From Hadesarchaea archaeon (GTDB lineage: Archaea; Hadarchaeota; Hadarchaeia; Hadarchaeales; WYZ-LMO6), in the NCBI GenBank assembly GCA_029259185.1, contig JAPDJF010000036.1, forward strand, positions 1 to 37,475: a stretch of 37,475 nucleotides of DNA. The letters run 5' to 3'. The notes under the pieces are model-generated. The model did not search any database. It was given only the letters and a program-made list of their open reading frames with translations, and was not told the DNA's origin. Within the stretch, counting starts at the first letter, position 1. Every line of letters starts with the position of its first letter. This document shows positions 1-12,575 of this stretch, one piece after another. Made by a program: the position numbers and the translations under genes.

Positions 1-168
1 CCTTCCCGTGGCCCTCGCCTGCTCCCTGAGCTGACCGCTCGTCCGGATGATGACCCCTGCGGCCACAGCTGCTACGAGGATGAGGGCTATGAATATGATC
101 AGCGTACCTATCCCGACGATACCCCGCCTCTCTCCGGCAAACCTGCTGGCCAATTTCATCTTTCTCAT
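1..168 (-). CDS. Archaellin (archaeal flagellin) N-terminus, cut by window edge
   Basis: The first 56 codons read from an ATG at 168 down to the window edge. The protein starts with a short basic leader ([16 protein letters not shown]), followed at once by [20 protein letters not shown] and then a polar stretch with [12 protein letters not shown]. This is the class III (type IV pilin-like) signal of archaellins. A FlaK/ArlK-type prepilin peptidase normally cuts after the Gly before IVGIG, and the hydrophobic helix packs in the filament core. A purine-rich stretch (AAGGATGGA) precedes the ATG. The rest lies outside the window, so the subtype and intactness are unknown. The spacer upstream, 169-291, carries copies of a palindromic motif also found near the neighbouring surface genes. 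Confidence 0.85.
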
Positions 169-224
169 TCCATCCTTATTTAACTAAAATGAGGCTTAAA
201 AAAGCTCCTATTCAATTTTAGAAT

Positions 225-286
225 CTGATAATCAGACTTTAGACAAAAAACAGTTAATTTATCTCTTTTTTTATCAAAAATGATAA
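225..286. promoter_or_regulatory. Candidate operator region upstream of the archaellin gene
   Basis: Positions 271-286 are a perfect 16-bp palindrome, TTATCA-AAAA-TGATAA. A related element, CTGATAATCAG, is at 225-235. Both lie in the AT-rich spacer between the archaellin start and the signal peptidase stop. The same 6-bp arms with a 4-bp spacer recur upstream of the surface-protein genes to the right. Repetition in spacers suggests a binding site for a dimeric regulator. The regulator is not identified. Confidence 0.5.
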
Positions 287-291
287 TTTTC

Positions 292-1410
292 TTATTCTTT
301 CTTTTTAAGCTCCCTCACCGTTTTCTCAAGCTCGGTGGTGACCATGTCCAAGTGCTGGGCGGTCTTGGCCAAACCCCTTATCGCCGCCGTGTGGGATTTA
401 AGGTGCATCGCATATTCCCTCATGGCACTTGAGAAGGAAACGAGCGCACCCTGGGTGTCCGCTGTGCTCCGGAGGGCCATTATTACCCTCTCCTCCAGCT
501 CCTTCCTCCGCTCCATCCAAGGAGGAATGGTGGCGTACAGGAGGAGGGAGGAAATTACTATAATAGCATAAGTCCTCCCGTATGCGGTCTGGAGGAAGAG
601 AAACACGTGGCCGAGTTTTGGAATTTTGAATCCGCTGTACCTCCCTATTACCTCCCCCACGCTTGTTTTGAACGGGTCTGGCCCGGTGGCATCACCTTTC
701 GTGATGAGATACTGATCCTCCACCTTCTCCACTCGGTGGATCAGCTGGGCAGGATAATTGTACCTCCGCTGGAACTCCTCGGATACCTTGAAGGCCACGA
801 CGTCCCCCGGTTTGATATCACTTGGACTTACTCCCTCCAGGTACACCACATCCCCCCTCTCAAGCGTTGGCTCCATACTGCTCGACCCAACCACCATAAA
901 GGGGATCCCCTCCACGTTGTAGATCAGGAGTGAAGCGAATACCAGAATCAACAACCCAACAGCTAGCTTGGAGGCAAGACTCCACCCTTCGAACCTCTTC
1001 CTCACGGGCGGCTCGACCCTGAGGGGAGGGACAACCTCACCCTCGATTTTCGGAACTGAGGGCTTTGGAAGTTTGAACTCCAAGAAATACCGTGGTCGTC
1101 CATCACTCCCCCTTCTCACATAAAAGCGAGGATCTCGGAGAGAACCTCCACCCCTCAGGATATCCTCAACCCGAGCACTCGGGACAACGGAGAAATGAAC
1201 CCACTTCCACTCCGAAGGGGGTCTTCCCTCCTTTGGAAACCTCAACCAAAGGTGAAGTTTCCCTTCTGCCTCATCGAACCTGAACTTAAAGGTTCCTGGG
1301 GGGAGTGTTCGATCCTTTTTCCCCAAAGCTAAGAGACTCTCGGCTATCCCCCCCATCCGTTCGGGTAGCTTGAGTCTGTAGGGGAGAAACGCAGCAGACA
1401 CCTTTACCAA
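292..1410 (-). CDS. Signal peptidase I (archaeal type) with extra N- and C-terminal regions
   Basis: A 372-aa membrane protein. Residues about 147-164 form a transmembrane helix. GSSSMEPTL follows, with the nucleophile Ser178 next to Met. A RGDVV and PGDVV box comes next, then LIHRV with His225 and KGDATGPDP with Asp240/Asp245. Archaeal and ER-type signal peptidases (S26B) use His where the bacterial enzyme has Lys, as here. A second hydrophobic helix spans about 281-296. The family core is usually 150-200 aa. This protein also has a 140-aa soluble N-terminal region, rich in Pro and basic residues, that I do not recognise, and a C-terminal charged helical tail of about 75 aa. The start is TTG at 1410 with GGCGGAG just upstream. 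It sits beside three secreted paralogues, so it may be their dedicated processing enzyme; that link is inferred from position. Confidence 0.85.
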   Translation of the reverse strand: MVKVSAAFLPYRLKLPERMGGIAESLLALGKKDRTLPPGTFKFRFDEAEGKLHLWLRFPKEGRPPSEWKWVHFSVVPSARVEDILRGGGSLRDPRFYVRRGSDGRPRYFLEFKLPKPSVPKIEGEVVPPLRVEPPVRKRFEGWSLASKLAVGLLILVFASLLIYNVEGIPFMVVGSSSMEPTLERGDVVYLEGVSPSDIKPGDVVAFKVSEEFQRRYNYPAQLIHRVEKVEDQYLITKGDATGPDPFKTSVGEVIGRYSGFKIPKLGHVFLFLQTAYGRTYAIIVISSLLLYATIPPWMERRKELEERVIMALRSTADTQGALVSFSSAMREYAMHLKSHTAAIRGLAKTAQHLDMVTTELEKTVRELKKKE

Positions 1411-1564
1411 AGAAAACTCCGCCTTTCCGATTTAAGAGATTTCTTAGAAAAATTTCAACTTTGATGAACTCAAAGCGCTGACCGACTGGCTTGGAGAGTA
1501 AAAGATCCGAGGGTGAATCAAAAGTTAGGGAGAGAGGTCGGTTTCAGAGGCTCCGCCTATCCCC

Positions 1565-2233
1565 TCAGAGGTTCGCGGCTTCCTCGATGTTACAGTAGTT
1601 GACCACGCCCGGATAGCTAGTGTATCCCTCTTTGGCGTAGTAATCACCGCTGTCCAACGCGATGACTAGTGGGTGATCGTGGCTCACGTTGTCGTAAGAG
1701 ATTATGAAAGTCGCAGGACCGCCCACCAGGGTCAACATAACGTTCTCCCCTGCGATGCGTTGCCAGTTATCGTTGTTCTGAAGTTGTTCGACGTTATCGG
1801 CATCTGTACCTATGAACTTGTAAACTGCGATGTTCTCGGTGAAGGATGTATAGTACTCGTTTAGATCCTTACGGTTAACCATTTCAACTTGGATCCACAC
1901 CCCCGTTCTCAACGCCGCATGAGGTCTGATGTAGAAGAGGTTCCCGGCACCTATCCTCCCACCAGTCCCTCCTATCACATTTTCAGGGAAGGAAGGAGCG
2001 TTATCATACGGTCCAACGGCCGAGTTTTCGGTCGTGAGATCTATGACGTCACCTATCCCGGGCGCAGAGTCGATAGGTGTGACGGTGGCTACCCCATAGG
2101 TCGCAGCGTATGCCAAGCCGAAGATCCCGCCCAACAAAATCAGGGTGAAAATGAAGATCAGGTGCTTCCTGTAAGATTTTTTTATCAGCCTAAATCTCCG
2201 ATTATCAAGGTTGAAAATCGATTTTCCACCCAT
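1565..2233 (-). CDS. Secreted surface-protein paralogue 1 (222 aa, minimal core)
   Basis: I chose the ATG at 2233 because GGAAGGTG lies just upstream and the product then begins with a basic stretch and one signal or anchor helix (about residues 24-43). A possible AYA cleavage site precedes Ala44. The open frame continues upstream to 2401, but that part reads through the AT-rich regulatory spacer. The mature part contains VGPYDNAP, FPENVIGGTGGR, GNLFYIRP, GVWIQVEMVNRKDLN, FTENIAVY, then HPLVIALDSGDYYAKEGY and a terminal IEEAA. The same landmarks occur in the genes at 2553-3641 and 4127-5959, so these are three paralogues. This one has no inserted domain and defines the core. I do not recognise a named family. 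A secreted or membrane-anchored surface protein is inferred from the leader. Confidence 0.75.
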   Translation of the reverse strand: MGGKSIFNLDNRRFRLIKKSYRKHLIFIFTLILLGGIFGLAYAATYGVATVTPIDSAPGIGDVIDLTTENSAVGPYDNAPSFPENVIGGTGGRIGAGNLFYIRPHAALRTGVWIQVEMVNRKDLNEYYTSFTENIAVYKFIGTDADNVEQLQNNDNWQRIAGENVMLTLVGGPATFIISYDNVSHDHPLVIALDSGDYYAKEGYTSYPGVVNYCNIEEAANL

Positions 2234-2283
2234 TTTTCCGCACCTTCCGAATATTGGGTTATTATGAAACTTAAAAACGGTTT

Positions 2284-2411
2284 CTATCAGATTATCATGC
2301 GTTAGAATTAAATCTGAGCATGAAAATCCGTTTAAATTGGTTTTTATCCAATTATCATCTTGTATAATTATCAAAGTCTGAAAATCTCTATTAAAAATCA
2401 AATCCGATAAT
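2284..2411. promoter_or_regulatory. Cluster of ATTATCA/TGATAAT half-sites upstream of paralogue 1
   Basis: The spacer before the gene ending at 2233 contains ATTATCA at 2291-2297, 2351-2357 and 2367-2373, and GATAAT at 2406-2411. The copies at 2351 and 2367 are 16 bp apart. They match the arms of the perfect palindromes at 271-286 and 3798-3815. The region is very AT-rich, so single half-sites could arise by chance. The clustering and the matching sites at sister genes support a regulatory role. Confidence 0.4.
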
Positions 2412-2552
2412 TAATTTTGATTAAAAATTTAGTTGACCCCACCAAAACTTTTTTTACCACACCCACTGAACCCAGAGAACCCACGATTACCTTAACCACA
2501 AACGAAACCAACACGGGTTAACGGGTGGAAAGTTGAAGAAAAGAAAAAATGC

Positions 2553-3641
2553 TCAGTACGCCGCTTCCTCGATGCTCAGGTAGTGAGTTATCCCGGGGAA
2601 GGTCCAGTACCCTTCCTTCGCCCAGAAGTCTCCCCTATCCAAAGCCACCACCATTGGGTGGTCAGCTCCCATCGTGGTTGAATGGAATATCCTCACGTAG
2701 TCGATCATCAAACTCGTTCGACCGACGGTCGAATCCGCCTGCCTGAAGCGGAGATGGACGTTTTCCGCTTGATTATCGTTGATCAGAGCTCTGAAGTTGT
2801 AGTTGTCATCCGTGAGCGTGAGAGTGTACACCGTATCGTCGCCCGAGTACGATAGGTTCTCGATGTAAACCCACTGTCCAGCGTCGAAATCCCACAGGTA
2901 GAGCTCTACCTCTTCGTTAGTGCCCTCTATGTGATACTCTATCTGGATCTCGTAGGAGTGATCCCGCGGAACTTCGGTTATGTAGTGGTAGACGTCGAAC
3001 ACATTGTCGGTGTTCTCGTATATGTTCTCATAGTTTCCGTCATCGGCCTGAGCGTTCTCGAAGTCGGTGACGGTTCCACCGATGTTCTCATAGTTATCAA
3101 CGTACGCGTAGCCGGAGTAGACCCTACTCACCTCGAACGTTGCCGGTGCACCTACGAGGGTCAGATAAGCCTCGTCGATTCGCTTCCACATGTTGTCCCA
3201 TACCCACCTCTCGGAGTTATCGCTAACGGCTAGATAAAGTCCGAGGTTCTCGGTGAAGGAGGTCCAGTGTTCATTTATCTCCTTCCGGTTTACCATCTCG
3301 ACTTGGATCCACAACCCCGTGTAAAGTTGAGGTCTGGGTTCGATGAAGAAGATATTCCCTGGAGAGAGCCTGCCTCCCGTGCCCCCTATCACGTTTTCAG
3401 GGAAGTAGGGAAATGTGTCGTACGGACCGATGGTCGTGTTCTCAACGCTCTGATCGTGCACCACTCCTATGTCCGGTGCACCTTGGGGCGGCCCGAGCAC
3501 CGCTACTCCCTGGGTCGCAGCGAAGGCTAGGGCAAAGATCCCGCCGAGTAAAGCGAGCACTAGGAATAACGCATTACGCCTCTTCAGTACCTTCCGCTTC
3601 GCAGAGGCCCAAGCCTTGAAGAATTTTCTTCGCGTTGTCAT
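2553..3641 (-). CDS. Secreted surface-protein paralogue 2 (362 aa, with inserted beta-sandwich-like domain)
   Basis: The protein starts with a basic stretch and a hydrophobic helix (residues about 23-41) ending in an AFA-Ala site much like that of paralogue 1. The core landmarks follow in order: IGPYDTFP (71-78), FPENVIGGTGGR (80-91), GNIFFIEP (95-102), GLWIQVEMVNRKEIN (109-123), FTENLGLY (129-136), HPMVVALDRGDFWAKEGY (328-345) and a terminal IEEAAY. Between APATFEVS and HPMVVALD, where paralogue 1 has about 10 residues, this protein has about 150. That insert is acidic and rich in Asn, Tyr and Asp, and it ends in a pattern like small jelly-roll domains (HLRFRQAD, then LMIDYVRIF). A carbohydrate- or ligand-binding sandwich is plausible but unproven. 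The gene lies 319 bp upstream of paralogue 1 on the same strand. Confidence 0.75.
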   Translation of the reverse strand: MTTRRKFFKAWASAKRKVLKRRNALFLVLALLGGIFALAFAATQGVAVLGPPQGAPDIGVVHDQSVENTTIGPYDTFPYFPENVIGGTGGRLSPGNIFFIEPRPQLYTGLWIQVEMVNRKEINEHWTSFTENLGLYLAVSDNSERWVWDNMWKRIDEAYLTLVGAPATFEVSRVYSGYAYVDNYENIGGTVTDFENAQADDGNYENIYENTDNVFDVYHYITEVPRDHSYEIQIEYHIEGTNEEVELYLWDFDAGQWVYIENLSYSGDDTVYTLTLTDDNYNFRALINDNQAENVHLRFRQADSTVGRTSLMIDYVRIFHSTTMGADHPMVVALDRGDFWAKEGYWTFPGITHYLSIEEAAY

Positions 3642-3688
3642 CTCCGATAACGAATCTTCAGAATCTTTTTTAAGAATGTTTCTCTCAA

Positions 3689-3727
3689 ATTATCAAAATT
3701 GTCCACCATAATTATCAAAATTGATAT
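3689..3727. promoter_or_regulatory. Candidate operator pair upstream of paralogue 2
   Basis: ATTATCA at 3689-3695 is followed by a near repeat at 3711-3727 that reads TTATCA-AAAT-TGATAT, one mismatch from the palindrome. They sit 48-86 bp upstream of the ATG at 3641. The arms and 4-bp spacing match the sites at 271-286 and 3798-3815. Confidence 0.45.
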
Positions 3728-3797
3728 GAATTAGACTCCAATTTGGATTTCAAGCTCTAATTTTGGTGTTCAGATGAAAAAATGATTCTTTTCAGTG

Positions 3798-3815
3798 ATT
3801 ATCAACTGTGATAAT
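3798..3815. promoter_or_regulatory. Perfect palindromic candidate operator between divergent genes
   Basis: ATTATCA-ACTG-TGATAAT is an 18-bp inverted repeat with 7-bp arms. It lies about 50 bp upstream of the small zinc-ribbon gene and about 160 bp upstream of paralogue 2, which is transcribed the other way. It is the longest perfect example of the motif seen in this window. Confidence 0.5.
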
Positions 3816-3864
3816 TTTATCGAAATACTTTAATGTAGTTTACTAAAGAAAAATTAACGATAAG

Positions 3865-4038
3865 ATGGAACTCGTTGAGAAAAGATGCACGTTCTGCGGG
3901 TACATAAACTACTTCCCGAACCCGCCCCTCCACCCCGAACACCGATGCTTGGAATGCGGCACTATAATCTATCCCAAAGCGATCCCAAAGGCCATGGAAA
4001 TAGCCCGCCCCACCCCCCGGCGTCCACGCAGACTCTAG
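3865..4038 (+). CDS. Small zinc-ribbon protein (57 aa)
   Basis: ATG at 3865 to TAG at 4036-4038. The protein has CTFCG near the start and CLECG about 17 residues later, so a CxxC-x16-CxxC arrangement that should bind one zinc ion. Its tail is basic and Pro/Arg-rich (ARPTPRRPRRL). No leader is present, so it should be cytoplasmic. It lies between the palindromic site at 3798 and the large surface-protein gene, on that gene's strand. It could be a small nucleic-acid-binding or regulatory protein of the surface cluster; this is an inference. The reading frame is short, but the paired cysteine knuckles make it unlikely to be random. Confidence 0.65.
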   Translation: MELVEKRCTFCGYINYFPNPPLHPEHRCLECGTIIYPKAIPKAMEIARPTPRRPRRL

Positions 4039-4048
4039 AGATTCAGCT

Positions 4049-4058
4049 CTGATAATCA
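4049..4058. promoter_or_regulatory. Half-site of the surface-cluster motif upstream of paralogue 3
   Basis: CTGATAATCA lies 69-78 bp before the ATG at 4127, in the spacer after the zinc-ribbon gene. It matches the element at 225-235 upstream of the archaellin gene. It is a single imperfect copy, so support is weaker than for the palindromes. Confidence 0.35.
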
Positions 4059-4126
4059 CTTCCCCATTTTTTTAAATTTACTTAACAAATTTTAACTAAG
4101 GGAATATTTAGGAGGATGCTAGCCCG

Positions 4127-5959
4127 ATGGAAACTCTTCGGAGGAGAAAAGGAACCGTCCTGCTCGTGCTGTTCCTCCTCACGCTCGCGGTGGCTCTCGT
4201 CTACTGCTCGACCTCCGCAGTGTTCACCACCACGCCCGAGAACTTCGCCCCGCGGGTGGCTGAAGTTAAGATGCTCGAGTGGAAGAGCAGGAAGGTGGGA
4301 CCGTACTACCACTTCCCGCCCCCGTACCAATTGTTCCCCCACGGGGTCGCGGCTTACCGCTCCGAGACGGGGAGTGGGGATGACTACCCGAAGTACAGGA
4401 CGTGGAACGGCGCCTACTGGAGTTCGGAGGAGGAACTCCCGGAGAACTTCGGCACCCCTCGCTGGGTGGTGGCCAAACACTTCCCGTTCTACTGCGAGCG
4501 CCTGGAGGAGTGGATATTCGTGGTGTGTGATGTTGAGGGGTGGCTCAGCGCGTACGTGTGGGACGGGGAGAACTGGATCATCGAAAACCGTTTCGCCCAG
4601 ACGGTGACCATCAACCGGGCATTCGACCTAGCGTATGAGCAGAAGTCCGGCGACGCCCTGCTCGTCTACTCGACAGGGGGGATTGACCCAGAGCTCAAGT
4701 ACAGGATCTGGAACGGGGAGAACTGGTCGTCCCCAGCCAGCTTGGACCTCACCACCGAGGACGAGGTGGTGAGGCTTGTCCGGATGGACTCCAACCCGCT
4801 TTCGGACGAGATATGCATGGTGGTGGTGAACGCCGCTCCCACTGCCATAGGGGTGGTCTGGGATGGGCAGAGCTGGGGAAACGAGACCATGCTCGATGTC
4901 GCTTCCGGCAGGGCTTACTCATCCACCACGTGGTCCGCGGACCTAGCTTATGAACAGACCACGGGGCACTGCGTGGTCGTGTACAATGATTTCTTGGTCG
5001 CGGCCCAGTTCGGGAGAACCCGTTCGAGGGTGTGGGACGGTACGGATTGGAGCGGATTTACCACCATAACCGATGATTACTCCACCGTGATCGAGGTGGA
5101 GCCCCAGCCTGGGTCCGAAAACATCATGCTTGTCGTGATCCTAGGAAGCACCTCCACCTACGGGAGGGACCTGTGGGACGGGGGTGCCTGGGTGGGGCTC
5201 GAGGACACGACGATCGCGAGCACCTACCCCGAGAACCGGACCTATGACCTGGCGTGGGAACCCGAGGGGGAGGAGCTACTGTGGGCATACCAGGACGACG
5301 CGAACCCGGGGACCCTCCAGTACCAGACGTGGACCCCCGCTGGAGGGTGGGGGACCCTCAGCGGTTCGATCCAGACGGGAGGGAGTCCAACCTGGGTGGA
5401 GCTCATCCCGGGATCCGAGCACCCGAGGGACACGGGGGTGCTCGGGGCATACCTGACCGACAACTTCGACCTGGGGGGTGCGTGGTGGACGGGAGACGAG
5501 CTGGTGAACCTCGGCTCCCAGCGGTTCACCGCGCTAGCGGGAGAGAGGTACACCAAGGTGTTCGACCTCACGAACCAGGGCGTGGACCACGGGAACCTCT
5601 ACCTCATAAGACCAAGCCCGCAGTACCGCCGGGGGCTGTGGATCCAAGTCGAGCTCGTGAACCGGTGGGAGATAGACAATTTCTACCTGGTGTTCGAGGA
5701 GAACGTGGGGGTGTACCGCGTGACCACCGACAACTCCGAGCTCTGGGAGAACGAGGAATACTGGGTGCCCGTGCAGCAGGAGAACATGAGCAAGTCGGGC
5801 AAACCCATCGAGTTCCAGGTTCCGGAGGTGTACGTGAGCTACGACTACCCGCTCGTGATCGCGATCGACAACATGTACTACGAGGTGAGACCTGAGAACG
5901 CCGAAAACGTGTGCGTGGGAGCGTACCACTACGTAAGCGTGGAGGAGGGAGACTATTGA
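4127..5959 (+). CDS. Secreted surface-protein paralogue 3 (610 aa, with inserted propeller-like repeats)
   Basis: ATG at 4127 follows GGAGGATG. A basic start (METLRRRKG) and a hydrophobic helix (10-26) end in LVYC, which could be a lipobox-like or signal peptidase site. The core appears as VGPYYHFPP (57-65), then GNLYLIRP (489-496), GLWIQVELVNRWEID (503-517), FEENVGVY (523-530), YPLVIAIDNMYY (574-585) and a terminal VEEGDY. Between VGPY and GNLYLIRP, where the sister proteins have about 20 residues, there are about 420. That stretch has W(N/D)GxxW-type repeats near residues 93, 145, 195, 245, 303 and 350 and weaker ones near 402 and 454, at roughly 50-residue spacing. This suggests a seven- or eight-bladed beta-propeller. 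The base composition is distinctly GC-richer than the other two paralogues. A surface adhesin or enzyme is possible; no catalytic motif was recognised. Confidence 0.75.
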   Translation: METLRRRKGTVLLVLFLLTLAVALVYCSTSAVFTTTPENFAPRVAEVKMLEWKSRKVGPYYHFPPPYQLFPHGVAAYRSETGSGDDYPKYRTWNGAYWSSEEELPENFGTPRWVVAKHFPFYCERLEEWIFVVCDVEGWLSAYVWDGENWIIENRFAQTVTINRAFDLAYEQKSGDALLVYSTGGIDPELKYRIWNGENWSSPASLDLTTEDEVVRLVRMDSNPLSDEICMVVVNAAPTAIGVVWDGQSWGNETMLDVASGRAYSSTTWSADLAYEQTTGHCVVVYNDFLVAAQFGRTRSRVWDGTDWSGFTTITDDYSTVIEVEPQPGSENIMLVVILGSTSTYGRDLWDGGAWVGLEDTTIASTYPENRTYDLAWEPEGEELLWAYQDDANPGTLQYQTWTPAGGWGTLSGSIQTGGSPTWVELIPGSEHPRDTGVLGAYLTDNFDLGGAWWTGDELVNLGSQRFTALAGERYTKVFDLTNQGVDHGNLYLIRPSPQYRRGLWIQVELVNRWEIDNFYLVFEENVGVYRVTTDNSELWENEEYWVPVQQENMSKSGKPIEFQVPEVYVSYDYPLVIAIDNMYYEVRPENAENVCVGAYHYVSVEEGDY

Positions 5960-6035
5960 TGGTCTCTGAGGTTTTCACTCTCCGACCCCAAAGGCGTTTC
6001 CACTTCGAAATGGGCTAAGAGATGGGGTTGCTGAG

Positions 6036-6584
6036 ATGGACTTCCTGATGGAGATCTTGGTGGTACTCGTGATCGCGCTCTTCGTGATAGTGCTGATCGA
6101 CATACTCAGGGGAAAGAAAACTGTCTACCCGAGAGACCTCTGGAAGCTCGTTCCCTCTGCCTCCGATCTTCCAGGATCGGGATGGGGGCTGATAGGGGAG
6201 TGGTGGCTCCCTTGGGTCGATGTGGTGTGGAAAAACGCGGTTGACAAGAACCCTTTAGAATCCGGGTACGAGGAAGGGTTCATGAACCTGTTCGAAAGGG
6301 GGGAGGAGCGAGTAGCCTTCTGCATTCTCAGATTCACGTCGAGCGAACTCGCCGCCAAAGCTTTCTCGGGGATCCGTGCAGAGTGGGGAGACAAGGAACT
6401 TTACGGGGTTTCGGTGGGGGAGGAATCGATCGGCCTATACCTCAGATCAAACGATGCGGATGGCATACTGTTCCGGGAGGGGGAGCTAGTGGCCTTCGTG
6501 TTGCTTGGTAAACCCGGGGTTCGCAGGGGGGAATCGCTAAAGTTCGCAGATCGTTTTGTGAAAATCATATGGGGGCTCGGATAG
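6036..6584 (+). CDS. Membrane-anchored hypothetical protein (182 aa)
   Basis: One N-terminal transmembrane helix (residues about 4-24, rich in Val, Ile and Leu) is followed by a short basic stretch and a soluble domain of about 150 residues. That domain contains many Trp residues and a hydrophobic strand pattern. No family is recognised. It starts at an ATG 76 bp after the large surface protein, on the same strand, and could be co-transcribed with it. The soluble part is more likely cytoplasmic than secreted if the Lys/Arg residues after the helix follow the positive-inside rule. Confidence 0.6.
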   Translation: MDFLMEILVVLVIALFVIVLIDILRGKKTVYPRDLWKLVPSASDLPGSGWGLIGEWWLPWVDVVWKNAVDKNPLESGYEEGFMNLFERGEERVAFCILRFTSSELAAKAFSGIRAEWGDKELYGVSVGEESIGLYLRSNDADGILFREGELVAFVLLGKPGVRRGESLKFADRFVKIIWGLG

Positions 6585-6643
6585 AACCACCTAATCGATC
6601 TCCGGGTAAAAATAGGGAAACGGGAAAAGATTAGTACGGAATC

Positions 6644-7024
6644 ATGTCGGGAAAGGGGACGAAGGTTTTCAAATACAAGCAAGTTCTCGTCGTTAGAGGC
6701 GACCTCGAAATGAGCGCAGGAAAGCTCGCGGCCCAGGTCGCCCACGGAGCAGTCCTAGCAGCCGAAAAGGCGAGATCCACCAAAAAAGAATGGTTTCAGG
6801 GTTGGATAGGAGAAGGTCAGAAAAAGGTTGTGGTGAAGGTTCCGGGGAAACCCGAACTGATACGTCTCCGAGACCAAGCGAAAGAACTCGGCCTCCCGGC
6901 TGAGGTGGTCGAAGATGCGGGCCTGACCGAGCTACCTCCCGGAACCCTAACCGTGCTCGGCATAGGACCTGGTCCGTCCGAACTCGTAGACAAGCTAACA
7001 GGGAGACTCCCCCTCCTGAGGTGA
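6644..7024 (+). CDS. pth2: Peptidyl-tRNA hydrolase 2
   Basis: A 126-aa protein with the Pth2 layout: KQVLVVRGDLEMSAGKLAAQVAHGAV at the N-terminus, then KVVVKVPG, LAEVVEDAG-like sequence (LPAEVVEDAGLTELPPG) and a terminal TVLGIGPGPSELVDKLTG. Pth2 recycles peptidyl-tRNAs that drop off the ribosome by cleaving the ester bond. The conserved Lys and Asp of the family are visible in the GKLAAQVAH and EDAG parts. The length is normal for archaea. A TATA-like TAAAAATA lies about 40 bp upstream. The gene ends 4 bp before thiL, so the two are likely one operon. Confidence 0.93.
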   Translation: MSGKGTKVFKYKQVLVVRGDLEMSAGKLAAQVAHGAVLAAEKARSTKKEWFQGWIGEGQKKVVVKVPGKPELIRLRDQAKELGLPAEVVEDAGLTELPPGTLTVLGIGPGPSELVDKLTGRLPLLR

Positions 7025-7028
7025 GTGG

Positions 7029-8009
7029 ATGGAAATCTCAAAGATGGGGGAAAGGAAGCTAGTGGAACTCGCCAAGCGTGTTTTCAAAACCCCCCGCTCC
7101 GTGAAAGTTGGCATAGGTGACGACGGGGCTGTTATTTCTCTGGGCAAGCATGAATTAGTGGTGACCACGGATATGCTCGCCTCTGGCACGGATTTCCCAT
7201 CAGGAACAACACCCTTCCACATGGGATGGAAGGCCGTAGTGGCAAACCTCAGCGACTTGGCCGCCATGGGAGCGAGGCCCTTGGGAATTCTCTTTTCGTT
7301 GGGCTTGCCGGGAACTCTGGAAAGGGAATTCGTTGAAGAGCTACTGAGGGGCATGAAAAGGTCCGCCGAAGAGCACGGAACCTGCGTCATAGGGGGGGAC
7401 TTCGGGGAATCTCCAGAAGTAACGATATGCGGTACGGCGGTGGGGAAGATAGAGGATGGAAAAGCTTTGAAGAGGAGTGGGGCCAAACCGGGCGATCTCC
7501 TGGCTATCACGGGGGAGCCCGGATGTGCCGCAGCCGGGTTGGAGATCCTCAACCTAAAGATGAAGGGTCACCGAAAACTCGTGGAGTCCTTCCTGAAGCC
7601 CCGTGCTAGGCTGAGGGAGGGAGTGATTCTCGCACGAAGGGGGTGGGCCACTTCTGCCATAGACGTTTCAGATGGGCTCATCAGGGACATGTGGAACCTC
7701 TCAAGGGGGAGCGGGGTAAAACTCGTGCTCGAACGTGAAAAAATTCCAGTCTCTCCGGCCCTCCTGAGGCTCACCTCCAAGCTGGGGAGATCCGCATGGG
7801 ATTTCGTGCTCTACGGAGGAGAGGACTTCGAGCTCATCTTCACGGTGTCACCAAGGCGGTGGGACGATGTCGAGAGGATGCTCGGAAAACTGGGAACGAA
7901 AGTGAGCGTGGTGGGGAGGGTAGAGAAGGGAAGGGGTGTATTCCTCCAAGAGGATGGAAAGACGATGAGAGTTCGAGATTTCGGCTACGAGCACTTCACC
8001 CATGGATAG
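7029..8009 (+). CDS. thiL: Thiamine-monophosphate kinase
   Basis: A 326-aa member of the AIR-synthase/ThiL ATP-binding superfamily. ThiL phosphorylates thiamine monophosphate to thiamine diphosphate. The signature GIGDDGAVI is at the N-terminus, followed by VTTDMLASGTDF, the WKAVVANLSDLAAMGARP helix, GGDFGES, SAIDVSDGLIRDMW and GGEDFELIFTV near the C-terminus, all typical of ThiL. The ATG follows the pth2 stop by 4 bp. The length is typical. I see no thiamine riboswitch upstream, and the gene's position behind pth2 suggests constitutive expression. Confidence 0.93.
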   Translation: MEISKMGERKLVELAKRVFKTPRSVKVGIGDDGAVISLGKHELVVTTDMLASGTDFPSGTTPFHMGWKAVVANLSDLAAMGARPLGILFSLGLPGTLEREFVEELLRGMKRSAEEHGTCVIGGDFGESPEVTICGTAVGKIEDGKALKRSGAKPGDLLAITGEPGCAAAGLEILNLKMKGHRKLVESFLKPRARLREGVILARRGWATSAIDVSDGLIRDMWNLSRGSGVKLVLEREKIPVSPALLRLTSKLGRSAWDFVLYGGEDFELIFTVSPRRWDDVERMLGKLGTKVSVVGRVEKGRGVFLQEDGKTMRVRDFGYEHFTHG

Positions 8010-8019
8010 AGAAATCTCG

Positions 8020-8910
8020 CTAAACGTAAAGTGCAGATTCCATGAGATTTCTTGGGTCAAGCATCTTCTTGATCTTCCGTTGCCATCGGTGGTAATTACT
8101 GACAAGAGGACCGAATTTGGAATGCGCTCCCGGAACCTCGAAGAGACCGAAGCCGAGTCCAAGGGGTTCTTCGACGCTCACCCTCGCACACTCCTCAAAG
8201 AAATGAGGCATCTCCTCGAGATGCTTCCGGTTGCGAGGATTGTACAACACCAACTCTTCGTGATGAAGGAGAAGACCGTCCGACTCGTAAAGTCCACCCC
8301 ATATGTTGTCAGCGAGATCATCGTACATCACGCCCTTCTCGATATATTTTTGTTTTATCTTTGCCCCGATCTCAGCTTGGCGCACCCAACATCGATCGTC
8401 TCATCACAGCCGAACGTCATCGTGAAGGTTCCCCCAAACCTGAATATGGCTGGGGGGAAGGATGCCCTGATGAGGCCCCACCACAGCGAAGCTGGATGCA
8501 GGATTTCTTTGAGTTCCGAGGGTACTTTTATTTCCCCCATCGACTCGATGAGTTCACCTATTACCTCATAGACCCCACCCGGGATCTCGCTCAAATCCAC
8601 ACACATCGAAGCCTCCGTTTCGTCCATGATCTTCGCTAGGACCTTCTGCTGGTATGCGAGCTCCCTATACGAATTGGCCGCCAAGACGAGCTGGAACATG
8701 TGCTGCATAGCCTTGAGACCCTCCCGCGTGATGGGAGCATCGGGCAATCGTCTTAGAATCTCGGGCGCGAAGCAGGCCAGTATCAATCCTATCGCGTTCT
8801 TACCGTGTACGTATCCTATTTCGGAATCCGCGATCTTATACATCGCCTCTCCGTATTTCTCAAAACTGGGGTGCTCCTCCGCGCATAAAAGCTTGTTCGG
8901 GCCGGGCGAC
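8020..8910 (-). pseudogene. FAD-linked oxidase (VAO/PCMH-like), N-terminally truncated and frameshifted
   Basis: Two minus-strand frames join into one protein. The upstream part contains EIGYVHGKNAIGLILACFAP and ends its homology at TIDVGCAKL near 8383. The match continues one frame over as AEIGAKIKQKYIEKGV through DPRNLMESALYV, stopping at 8020. The order resembles the C-terminal cap and FAD-binding part of FAD-linked oxidases of the GlcD/vanillyl-alcohol-oxidase superfamily. The N-terminal FAD-binding half is absent: upstream the frame runs only to about 8935, where pheS begins on the other strand. One missing base explains the shift. The exact subfamily and substrate cannot be read. It ends 10 bp from thiL, tail to tail. 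Confidence 0.6.
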
Positions 8911-9001
8911 TCCCTTTCATCACTTGACCCATTTGACTTTTATGAACTGGACGAACACAATAAACTATGTAACTCTATCAATCAACTCATTGGGGGAAAT
9001 G

Positions 9002-10570
9002 ATGGACATCGACCCAACAGCCCAGGATTTAGATGTGCACGAAGTCAAGACCCTACTCGCCTTGAAAGGGGGTGAACGAGCACCGGTGAAGAAGATAGAG
9101 GAGTCCACCGGACTAGACCACTCCGCCGTCATGCGAGCCGCGCTGAGACTGAGTCAGAGGGGACTGATCAAGATCGAAGAATCCGAGGCCCTGACCATCA
9201 GGCTCACTCCGGAGGGCGAGGCGGACTCCACGAAGGGACTGCCCGAACGTAGGATGCTCAGAATTCTGGCCGAGAGGGGAGAATGCTCTCTGGACGAACT
9301 TCAAAAGGTGGCTCAGATGTCACCCGGGGAGGTCAGGATCGCTCTGGGCTGGCTCAGACGCAAGGAATGGGCGGAGATCTTGAGGGAGGGAAACCGGGTT
9401 TTCTTGAAGATAACGGAGAAGGGGAAGGTGAACCTTCATGAAGAATCCGACGATGAAAAATTGCTCAAAACGGTCTCCAAATGGGGGGAGGCCGAAGTGA
9501 GGAAACTCCCCCAAGACCTCAGGTCTGAGGTAGGGACGCTCAAGCGGAGGGGACTCGTCGAAGTAGTTGAGCGGGTGGAGCGAAGCCTCATCCTCACCGA
9601 TCTAGGAAAAAGAGTACTTGAGGCGGGTGTAACACCCACGGAGGAAATCAGCGAACTCACCCACGAGCTGCTCGTTACCGGGAGGTGGAAGAACACCAAA
9701 TTCAAACGTTATGACCTCTCCCTTGGAGTTCCCCCCATCTACCCGGCTAAGATCCACCCCCACCAGAAGGTCATAGAGGAGATCCGAGACGTGCTCATCG
9801 GGATGGGTTTCGTCGAGATAAAAAGCAGGATAGTCGAATCTGAGTTCTGGAACTTTGACATCCTCTTTCAAGCCCAAGATCATCCCGCGAGAGAAGTCCA
9901 TAGCAATCTCTCCCTTTCCAAACCCGCTCGGACGAAGTTGCCCTCACCCGAACTCGTGAGACGTGTGGCCAAGGCCCATGAAAAAGGTGTGGCGGGATCC
10001 ACAGGGTGGGGATACAAGTTCAGTACCGAAATCAGCCGAAAGCCCGTTCTTTGCTCACAAACTACGGTAGCCACCGTCCGATACCTAACCTCCCGCCCGA
10101 AGCCACCCGTAAAGATATTCTGCATCGATCGGGTTTACCGTCACGAAAAGATAGACTACAAACACCTAGCGGAGTTTTATCAGTGTGAAGGGATAGTCAT
10201 GGATCGCGGGCTGACCCTCCGGAACATGCTGGGGTATCTCAGGCAAATCGTCACTAACCTCGGATTCGAAAAGATGAGATTCAGACCGGGTTTTTTCCCT
10301 TTCACCGAACCCTCGGTCGAGGCTGACGTATTCAACGAGGAAAGGAGGGAGTGGATAGAAATACTGGGGGCCGGCCTCTTCAGACCCGAGCTGCTCCGCC
10401 CCATTGGCATAAGATATCCGGTGCTAGCATGGGGCATCGGCTTATCTAGGCTTGTTATGATGCGACTCGGGCTCGATGATATCAGGGATATATTCTCAAA
10501 CGATCTCGAGTGGCTGGCGAGTTCGAGATACCCACCGACCCACGCGCCCGAGCCTCTGGGGGTGGAATGA
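9002..10570 (+). CDS. pheS: Phenylalanyl-tRNA synthetase alpha subunit
   Basis: A 522-aa archaeal/eukaryotic-type PheS. The N-terminal 200 residues hold repeated winged-helix DNA/RNA-binding domains (such as LLALKGGERAPVKKIEESTG). The class II catalytic core follows: HPHQKVIEEIRDVLIGMGFVE, then motif 2 around FCIDRVYRHEKIDYKHLAEFYQCEG and motif 3 near GAGLFRPELLRPIG and LAWGIGLSRLVMMRLG. I chose the ATG at 9002 because a GGGGG lies 5-9 bp upstream; an adjacent ATG at 8999 and earlier in-frame codons are alternatives. The stop abuts pheT with no spacer, so the two subunits are translated together. Confidence 0.93.
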   Translation: MDIDPTAQDLDVHEVKTLLALKGGERAPVKKIEESTGLDHSAVMRAALRLSQRGLIKIEESEALTIRLTPEGEADSTKGLPERRMLRILAERGECSLDELQKVAQMSPGEVRIALGWLRRKEWAEILREGNRVFLKITEKGKVNLHEESDDEKLLKTVSKWGEAEVRKLPQDLRSEVGTLKRRGLVEVVERVERSLILTDLGKRVLEAGVTPTEEISELTHELLVTGRWKNTKFKRYDLSLGVPPIYPAKIHPHQKVIEEIRDVLIGMGFVEIKSRIVESEFWNFDILFQAQDHPAREVHSNLSLSKPARTKLPSPELVRRVAKAHEKGVAGSTGWGYKFSTEISRKPVLCSQTTVATVRYLTSRPKPPVKIFCIDRVYRHEKIDYKHLAEFYQCEGIVMDRGLTLRNMLGYLRQIVTNLGFEKMRFRPGFFPFTEPSVEADVFNEERREWIEILGAGLFRPELLRPIGIRYPVLAWGIGLSRLVMMRLGLDDIRDIFSNDLEWLASSRYPPTHAPEPLGVE

Positions 10571-12214
10571 ATGCCGACCATCACCGTGAGTTATTCGGAT
10601 ATATGCAGTATGCTCGGAAGGGAGTTCGACAGCACATACCTCTGTGAGCGCTTGAACATGATGGGCATAGAAACGGAGGTTATCGGTGACGAACTCAAGC
10701 TAGAGATCCTACACAACCGACCCGACTTGCTCAGCCCGGAGGGAGTGGTGAGAGCGCTCAAAGGTTTTTTAGGTATAGAGACCGGGCTCCCCAAATACCG
10801 CGCGACTCCTTCGGGGATAACTTTGAGGGTGGATAAAAGCGTGAAATCCGTAAGACCATTCATTTCCGCCGGGGTGGTCACAGGGGTAAAACTCACGGAT
10901 GAGATAGTCGCTTCCCTCATGCAAGTTCAAGAAAAGCTCCACGCGTCGCTCTGTCGAAACAGGCGCAAAGGGTCCATAGGAGTGTATGATTTGGATACGA
11001 TCGAACCACCAATCCGGTACACCACGGTTTCTCCCGAGGAGATCTCTTTCACCCCCCTAGATTTCGGTCGGACACTCACCCCTGCACAGATCTTGCGAGA
11101 GCACCCTAAGGGCATCGAATACGGGTGGATCATGGAAGGATGGAACCGCTACCCGATACTGATGGATGAAAAGGGAAGGGTTCTATCCATGCCCCCCATC
11201 ATCAACAGCGAGGAGACAAGGGTCACGGAAAAGACCGAGCGGTTGTTCATCGATGTAACGGGGGAAGACGAGCGGTTGGTGAACTGGACGCTTGTAATCC
11301 TCATGACGAGTCTCTCGGAAAGGGGCTTCCGGTTACACACCGTTTCGGTGGAATATCCAAACAAACGCATAGAAACACCATCCCTCCGCCCCAAGCGATA
11401 CTCCTTGAATGTGAAGGTCACGAACGAACTCCTAGGTCTGAACCTGAAGCCGAGTAAAATTGCTGAGATCTTGAAAACTATGCGCTACGGAGTTGCGGGC
11501 TCTCGGAAAGATAGCTTAACTTTGCTCGCTCCGCCGTACAGGGGTGATATCCTGCATCAGGTTGACTTGATCGAGGATGTGGGAATAGGGTACGGGTATG
11601 ACAAACTCACCCCCGTGGCTGGCAAAGTTTTCACGATCGGAAAGAAAGCACCTATAGAAAGTCTCGCCGACCGGGTGCGTGAGATCATGATCGGATTGGG
11701 ATTCACGGAAGTTATGACGTACACCCTCACAAACCCACACGTCAACTTCGAGTTGATGCGAACGACCGGTGATGCTGTCGAAATATCCAATCCCGTGTCC
11801 GAGGACTACACGATCGTTCGGACATGGCTCCTCCCTTCTCTGCTCTCTGTCCTCCGATCGAACAAGCGAAATCCTTTACCCCAGCAGATATTCGAAGTCG
11901 GGGATGTGGTGCTCCTGGACGACCGAACCGAAACCGGAGCCGTGAACGTCAGAAGGGTAGCAGCTGTTGCAATAGGGAGTCGGGCAAACTGGACGTACAT
12001 CAAGGCTGTAGCGGATGCCCTCTTGAGAGAGCTCGACATCGCGGCTGAGGTCAGGGGTACGGACCATCCGAGTTTTCTGGGGGGAAGGGTGGCCGAATTC
12101 ATTTTTCGTGGACGGAGATTGGGTGTGGCCGGAGAAGTCCATCCCGAGGTGATTCTGGGCTTCGAACTTGAACATCCAGTGGTCGCTCTGGAATTCGACC
12201 TTATTTCCGGCTGA
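10571..12214 (+). CDS. pheT: Phenylalanyl-tRNA synthetase beta subunit
   Basis: A 547-aa archaeal-type PheT, shorter than the bacterial beta subunit. It has the N-terminal editing and B3/B4 region (LEILHNRPDLLSPEGVVRALKGF, and KGSIGVYDLDTIEPPIRYT), a B5-type segment (LLAPPYRGDILHQVDLIEDVGIGYGYD) and the catalytic-like C-terminal core (IGLGFTEVMTYTLTNP, then VVALEFDL). It forms the alpha2beta2 enzyme with PheS and checks mischarged Tyr-tRNA(Phe). The ATG directly follows the pheS stop. Confidence 0.93.
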   Translation: MPTITVSYSDICSMLGREFDSTYLCERLNMMGIETEVIGDELKLEILHNRPDLLSPEGVVRALKGFLGIETGLPKYRATPSGITLRVDKSVKSVRPFISAGVVTGVKLTDEIVASLMQVQEKLHASLCRNRRKGSIGVYDLDTIEPPIRYTTVSPEEISFTPLDFGRTLTPAQILREHPKGIEYGWIMEGWNRYPILMDEKGRVLSMPPIINSEETRVTEKTERLFIDVTGEDERLVNWTLVILMTSLSERGFRLHTVSVEYPNKRIETPSLRPKRYSLNVKVTNELLGLNLKPSKIAEILKTMRYGVAGSRKDSLTLLAPPYRGDILHQVDLIEDVGIGYGYDKLTPVAGKVFTIGKKAPIESLADRVREIMIGLGFTEVMTYTLTNPHVNFELMRTTGDAVEISNPVSEDYTIVRTWLLPSLLSVLRSNKRNPLPQQIFEVGDVVLLDDRTETGAVNVRRVAAVAIGSRANWTYIKAVADALLRELDIAAEVRGTDHPSFLGGRVAEFIFRGRRLGVAGEVHPEVILGFELEHPVVALEFDLISG

Positions 12215-12269
12215 GATGGGAGCGATCGGACACCACTCGCAACGCTCCCAGATAGGAAAAACTATATCG

Positions 12270-12575
12270 AGAGAATAAAATAATATCAATCGCAATGAGG
12301 GAACATCCGCGGTCGAAAGGGCTGGCGGGATACGTGAACGCCGGTGCATCGCCGCGGGCACACCGGAGCATCTGCCGGGACAATCCGTGCCACTAGGGTC
12401 CTCCTGAGAGCGACTGGCGGGAACACCTAGCGATGATCTGTGGGCCAACCCTGGTGCGGAACACCGGCAGGTGGCCTCGGGATCCCACCACGAGGGTTAG
12501 CAGGTGGAGGACGTCGAAAGACAGTCGAGGAAACCTGTGGTTAGTGTGTTGGGATCCTGGGGTCTAATTCTCTAG
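12270..12575 (+). ncRNA. Unassigned structured RNA (long irregular rod with hairpins)
   Basis: There is no convincing coding frame here, but many nested helices can be drawn. From outside in they are 12562-12564 with 12379-12381, AUCC 12383-12386 with 12552-12555, CCAC 12390-12393 with 12537-12540, AGG 12395-12397 with 12534-12536, CCUC 12400-12403 with 12527-12530, CGACU 12411-12415 with 12523-12527, CACCU 12424-12428 with 12502-12506 and GUGGG 12440-12444 with 12484-12488. The top is CUGGUG-CGGAA-CACCGG at 12451-12467. Two smaller hairpins lie 5' (12324-12342 and 12343-12364). AGAGAAU 12270-12276 could pair with AUUCUCU 12567-12573. The apical GGAA hairpin followed by CAGG recalls SRP RNA helix 8, but the UGUAA turn is absent and the hairpin order fits poorly. 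The 5' end is uncertain. Confidence 0.45.

Follow-up and report, generated by a model that had tools for sequence, protein, structure and literature searches.

It was found that three paralogous secreted proteins of a Hadesarchaea archaeon are probably diverged relatives of the archaeal cannula (Can) proteins, and that their locus is probably an appendage-building cluster. Cannulae are self-assembled hollow tubes of about 25 nm that lie outside the cell, and they have been described to date from a single family of heat-loving archaea. The window analyzed in this study is a stretch of 37,475 nucleotides (contig JAPDJF010000036.1), and the locus lies within its first 6 kb. Since a profile comparison and a fold comparison both place the shared core of the three proteins with Can proteins, which are tube subunits, the appendage reading is supported. 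A sequence-only reading of this DNA had guessed that the genes encode an extracellular appendage or sheath of modular build. That guess is supported, as the core groups with cannula proteins and two of the paralogues each carry an insert of their own.

Three paralogues share one core

The three genes are referred to as A (positions 1565-2233, minus strand, 222 aa), B (2553-3641, minus strand, 362 aa), and C (4127-5959, plus strand, 610 aa). Their alignment revealed secreted proteins with a common leader and one core of about 170 aa. The core identity to A is 54% for B and 36% for C, and the invariant columns are GPY, GN, WIQVE-VNR, F-EN, P-V-A-D, and EE. A three-sequence profile, run against their own genome, recovered A, B, and C alone, with E-values between 1e-68 and 1e-109. 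At the sequence level, the similarity among the three is far above chance. The alignment and the profile agree with the ORFs, the shared leader and core, and the size range of 222 to 610 aa that had been read from the letters.

The sizes differ because B and C have one large insertion each. A consists of a signal peptide and a minimal core, predicted to be a cannula-like jelly roll. B has an A-type core with an insert of about 145 aa before the DHPMVVALD strand (about residues 180-323 by alignment; positions 2673-3104, minus strand), for which no family match was found (best Pfam E 0.13). C has an A-type core with an insert of about 395 aa near the N-terminus (about residues 65-460; positions 4319-5506, plus strand), which follows the GPY segment and precedes the GNLYLIRP strand in the alignment. 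Thus, the two inserts occupy different loops of the core. The C insert has WDG-W repeats and a propeller-like pattern, and no Pfam match was found for it. Since the AlphaFold2 model of C is poor (pLDDT 43.6), just its propeller-like pattern was used. The closest folds of the insert in a Foldseek search with this low-confidence model are sialidase and fucose-lectin propellers, which suggests a sugar-binding side domain.

By sequence, the leader cleavage context is AYA/ATYG in A and AFA/ATQG in B. The predicted mature N-terminal segments are ATYGVATVTPI (A) and ATQGVAVLGP (B), and the N-terminus has a low pLDDT in the A model. Acidic residues far outnumber basic ones in mature A (22 D+E vs. 8 K+R), and such a strongly acidic protein would suit cation-dependent assembly.

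Does the core belong to a known sequence family? Pfam, NCBIfam, and PDB sequence searches with the A/B/C core gave nothing significant. Lipocalin (E 0.012) and AFP_2 were dropped because these matches were below the cut-off. The HMM of the family found zero relatives among the 27 further genomes of its phylum (28 including its own) and zero in wider genome-contig and viral-contig collections; the family is known from one genome alone. DUF1102, the PDB label of the cannula protein Hyper2, matched nothing, and its controls were unmatched as well. A BFVD fold search returned zero matches at E ≤ 0.001.

The core resembles cannula proteins in fold and profile

The AlphaFold2 model of A, which was built from just three sequences, is all-beta (pLDDT 68.7, pTM 0.73). 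In a Foldseek search of this model against 350,542 PDB chains, ranks 1 to 5 were all cannula proteins with a Foldseek probability of 1.00: 9h8b CanX (E 4e-4), 9dlo, 7uii, and 9hdi (CanA), and 9bab Hyper2. The CanX structure (9h8b) is derived from ex vivo Pyrodictium abyssi cannulae. The TM-scores between the A model and the Can structures range from 0.43 to 0.57, with rmsd values of 6-16 Å; the TMt values of the five top-ranked matches are 0.46-0.57. Since the model confidence and the TM-scores are moderate, the fold match was treated as a lead, which was then tested by sequence. The predicted Can jelly-roll fold is that of a medium-confidence model of A alone.

For the sequence comparison, a CanA query led via a Hyperthermus MAG to Can families in three genomes, with 5, 18, and 8 matches. 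Residues 26-207 of the query are fully identical to PDB 7uii, and its signal peptide is based on similarity to CanX. When the window core was compared with 25 trimmed Can proteins by hhalign, the score was 29.2. The scores of 250 column shuffles were lower (mean 12.7, sd 2.4, maximum 22.1). Reversal of the profiles gave 12.2 and 7.9, and the scores of decoy families were 11.0-14.5. With Can sets that were smaller or aligned in another way, the scores were 20.3 (P 0.025) and 18.3 (P 0.043). In view of these weaker P values, I judge the profile-level relationship between the window core and the Can family to be real but remote, with modest significance. A Can HMM run against the window genome gave no match, even with the cut-off relaxed to E ≤ 10.

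The aligned landmark pairs of the window and Can proteins include GGTGGR/GAQG and WIQVEMVNRKDLNEYY/VKLKVTLANAEQLKPYF. The YYAKEG/YEAKEG pair is aligned in one of two possible registers, and the alignments disagree on how the last two strands should be paired. The Ca2+ ligands of CanA at subunit contacts are reported to be Q39, Q54, N56, D114, E116, E161, and E164 (PMC12326000). With the C-terminal register ambiguous, the equivalent of E164 (in AKEG) is the sole ligand clearly kept in A and B. Thus, the subunit contacts would have to differ from those of CanA.

A signal peptidase I lies beside the paralogues

The gene next to A (292-1410, minus strand) encodes a signal peptidase I of the archaeal S26B type (372 aa, Ser178-His225-Asp240). 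The sequence-only reading had named it as such, and the assignment is confirmed by a match to TIGR02228 sigpep_I_arch (E 3.1e-23; 82.4 bits, cut-off 51.85) and by the Ser/His/Asp residues, whose arrangement is shared with SipW and archaeal signal peptidase I (MEROPS S26B). The protein has the motifs GSSSMEP, IHRV, and KGD and can be aligned to the peptidases of Can clusters. A soluble domain is added at its N-terminus, and its C-terminus forms a coiled-coil-like tail. In contrast, the Can-cluster peptidases (193-197 aa) lack both, and the SipW model has 189 positions. It is the third signal peptidase in the genome; the other two are on contigs C1 and C13. Near the end of contig C13, the minus strand has a translated tandem repeat, HVSTTCHSAGDVIVPV; a signal-peptidase-like gene lies within a few kb of it, as does a long ORF.

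It had been asked whether relatives of the core family neighbor a signal peptidase. They do in three genomes. In genome G187, about 1.4 kb separate a signal peptidase I gene from a gene for a 429-aa Can-type protein, and about 2.8 kb separate it from CanX; a P-loop ATPase gene lies in between. In G190, the ATPase, the peptidase, and a large Can-type gene are in the same order. In G520, which belongs to the same phylum as Pyrodictium and has no further Can match in the genome, a Can-like gene, a P-loop ATPase gene, and a signal peptidase I gene are adjacent. The G520 Can-like gene (locus at 5132-7741) is cut by the contig end and matched a combined window and Can HMM with an E-value of 1.2e-6. 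Thus, placing the core with a known family preserves its proposed link to signal peptidases, as the Can clusters themselves carry signal peptidase I. The sizes of the Can paralogues span about 175 to about 450 aa, and their inserts, like those of B and C, sit in different loops. A giant surface protein (about 1260-1296 aa) is conserved in both Can clusters (L098 10518-14300; L099 12860-16750) and is a possible cannula anchor or cap.

Linked peptidases were also found for TasA-like genes. In G187, an ABP/TasA-like gene with a YAQWSETL leader adjoins the gene of a 380-aa signal peptidase (5565-7591), which is separate from the Can-cluster peptidase. In G025, a genome of the window genome's own family, TasA-like 'AHWTDTL..TG' proteins are encoded next to, and fused with, a signal peptidase. 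There, a 633-aa signal peptidase with a fused C-terminal TasA-like domain is followed by two TasA-like genes with AHWS/T leaders (8309-12279, minus strand).

In summary, the closest known systems are CanA and CanX of P. abyssi (7uii, 9dlo, 9hdi, 9h8b) and Hyper2 (9bab). They have a comparable leader and cleavage context (GFA/TTQS in CanA, to be compared with the A and B leaders) and an all-beta jelly roll. They are also alike in having several insert-bearing paralogues, a signal peptidase I in the cluster, and an acidic mature protein (21 D+E vs. 12 K+R in CanA). In contrast, HMM-detectable homology to A/B/C is absent, and most of the CanA Ca2+ ligands are not clearly kept in the window proteins. 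The window inserts are much larger and, in C, propeller-like, and the P-loop ATPase of the G187, G190, and G520 clusters is missing from the window locus. The phylum also differs: 28 genomes represent that of the window genome, and the Hyperthermus MAG comes from a phylum for which 398 genomes were taken from a larger group. Thus, the window family belongs to a different archaeal phylum from Pyrodictium.

A heptamer is clustered beside the paralogues and an archaellin gene

The archaellin that had been read beside the paralogues did match the archaellin family (PF01917; C16 4-123, E 1.3e-11), but what remains is a 5′ fragment of about 56 codons (1-168, minus strand) at the start of contig C16, which covers positions 1-40 of the 162 model positions before the contig end. 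Its leader of 127 bp recurs without a mismatch at the end of contig C35. Thus, the archaellin gene was cut at the contig edge by an assembly break of k-mer size. Two archaellin genes therefore have an identical 127-bp leader (1-127 and the C35 end), and the repeated 5′ ends may result from a recent duplication or gene conversion. The archaellum cluster of the genome maps to contig C6, where genes for an archaellin, the assembly ATPase, and the platform lie together.

The heptamer TGATAAT has 11 copies in the window, all within 226-4056, while 3.7 are expected in the whole window. Two copies (226 and 281; region 226-287) are between the signal peptidase and archaellin genes. Four (2201, 2291, 2351, and 2367; region 2201-2373) are at the start and upstream of A, and five (3689, 3711, 3798, 3809, and 4050; region 3689-4056) are in the divergent B/C promoter region. 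Ten of the 11 copies are intergenic beside archaellin, A, and B/C (0.3 expected; none of 2000 simulations reached ten), statistics that are descriptive since the heptamer was spotted by eye. Two further copies are upstream of the C35 archaellin gene (7351 and 7364 of the C35 piece), and zero copies were found in the archaellum cluster on C6. This distribution suggests that A, B/C, and archaellin are co-regulated via TGATAAT. Thus, the proposed tie between the archaellin and the system is retained in part: the heptamer is common to both, but the truncated neighbor makes for a weaker link. Between B and C, flanked by TGATAAT, is a small ORF (3865-4038, plus strand) for a 57-aa protein with two CxxC pairs, which resembles a zinc ribbon and is a possible candidate regulator.

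Discussion

How would such proteins build an appendage? By analogy with CanA, for which donor-strand complementation has been reported (as cited in PMC12326000 and among the references of PMC11952670), A, B, and C would each be secreted through Sec. The hydrophobic leader would then be cut off by a signal peptidase I, most likely that of the same locus. The freed N-terminal segment would then fill the groove of a neighboring jelly roll, and the assembled product would be an extracellular filament or tube. A may be the plain subunit, while B and C may be rarer subunits that display an extra domain, which in C would be propeller-like and possibly sugar-binding. The genes of all three may be co-regulated with archaellin genes through the TGATAAT sites.

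In donor-strand threads or bundling fibers of the TasA, AbpA, and Saci_0406 kind, the subunits are likewise secreted beta-sandwich proteins that signal peptidase I processes. A dedicated peptidase is often encoded next to TasA and AbpX-like genes. If A/B/C formed a thin thread of this kind, the window peptidase would be a SipW counterpart, and SipW is indeed its second-best model (E 4.8e-11). The archaeal bundling pili AbpA (7ueg) are at rank 13 in the fold search with A, and the peptidase-linked or peptidase-fused TasA-like genes of G025 and the ABP-like gene of G187 also fit a thread. However, the YAxWSxTL leader motif is missing from A, B, and C, and the hhalign score against an ABP/TasA-like set is 13.5, the level of its shuffles (11.9 ± 2.0), compared with 29.2 for Can. 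On this score, TasA/ABP membership was rejected, and I consider a thread of this kind doubtful. The propeller-like insert of C, with its resemblance to sialidases and fucose lectins, and the poorly kept Ca2+ ligands would also be expected of surface or secreted lectin-like binding proteins that have a jelly-roll core and do not polymerize. This seems unlikely, given that tube subunits take all of the first five ranks in the PDB search with the core and that the size variants beside a signal peptidase match Can loci. That A/B/C might be accessories of the archaellum, such as a sheath, cap, or stabilizer, is hinted at by the heptamers upstream of A/B/C and of the window and C35 archaellin genes. 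It is very improbable: the archaellum cluster is on another contig and has no heptamer, no sequence similarity to archaellum proteins was found, and the leaders look like signal peptidase I substrates, not class III ones.

The preferred reading, that A/B/C are diverged Can relatives, bears on a family that has been described as narrow. Cannulae have been called species-specific (PMC7613921) and exclusive to Pyrodictiaceae (PMC13140500), and CanA has been described as having no sequence relatives (PMC12326000). It can be speculated, tentatively, that an archaeon of a non-Pyrodictium phylum builds cannula-type hollow tubes, with minor subunits that bear large lectin-like domains on the tube and with expression coupled to that of archaellins via TGATAAT. 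The linked signal peptidase I recurs here, in the Pyrodictiaceae Can clusters, in the ABP-like locus, and in the TasA-like loci of relatives. Thus, a subunit-linked signal peptidase I is a practical marker for hidden archaeal filament systems. These results suggest that cannula-like tube- or filament-building proteins are more widespread than thought. If a related family does sit in another phylum, the evolution and function of cannulae would become testable by comparison.
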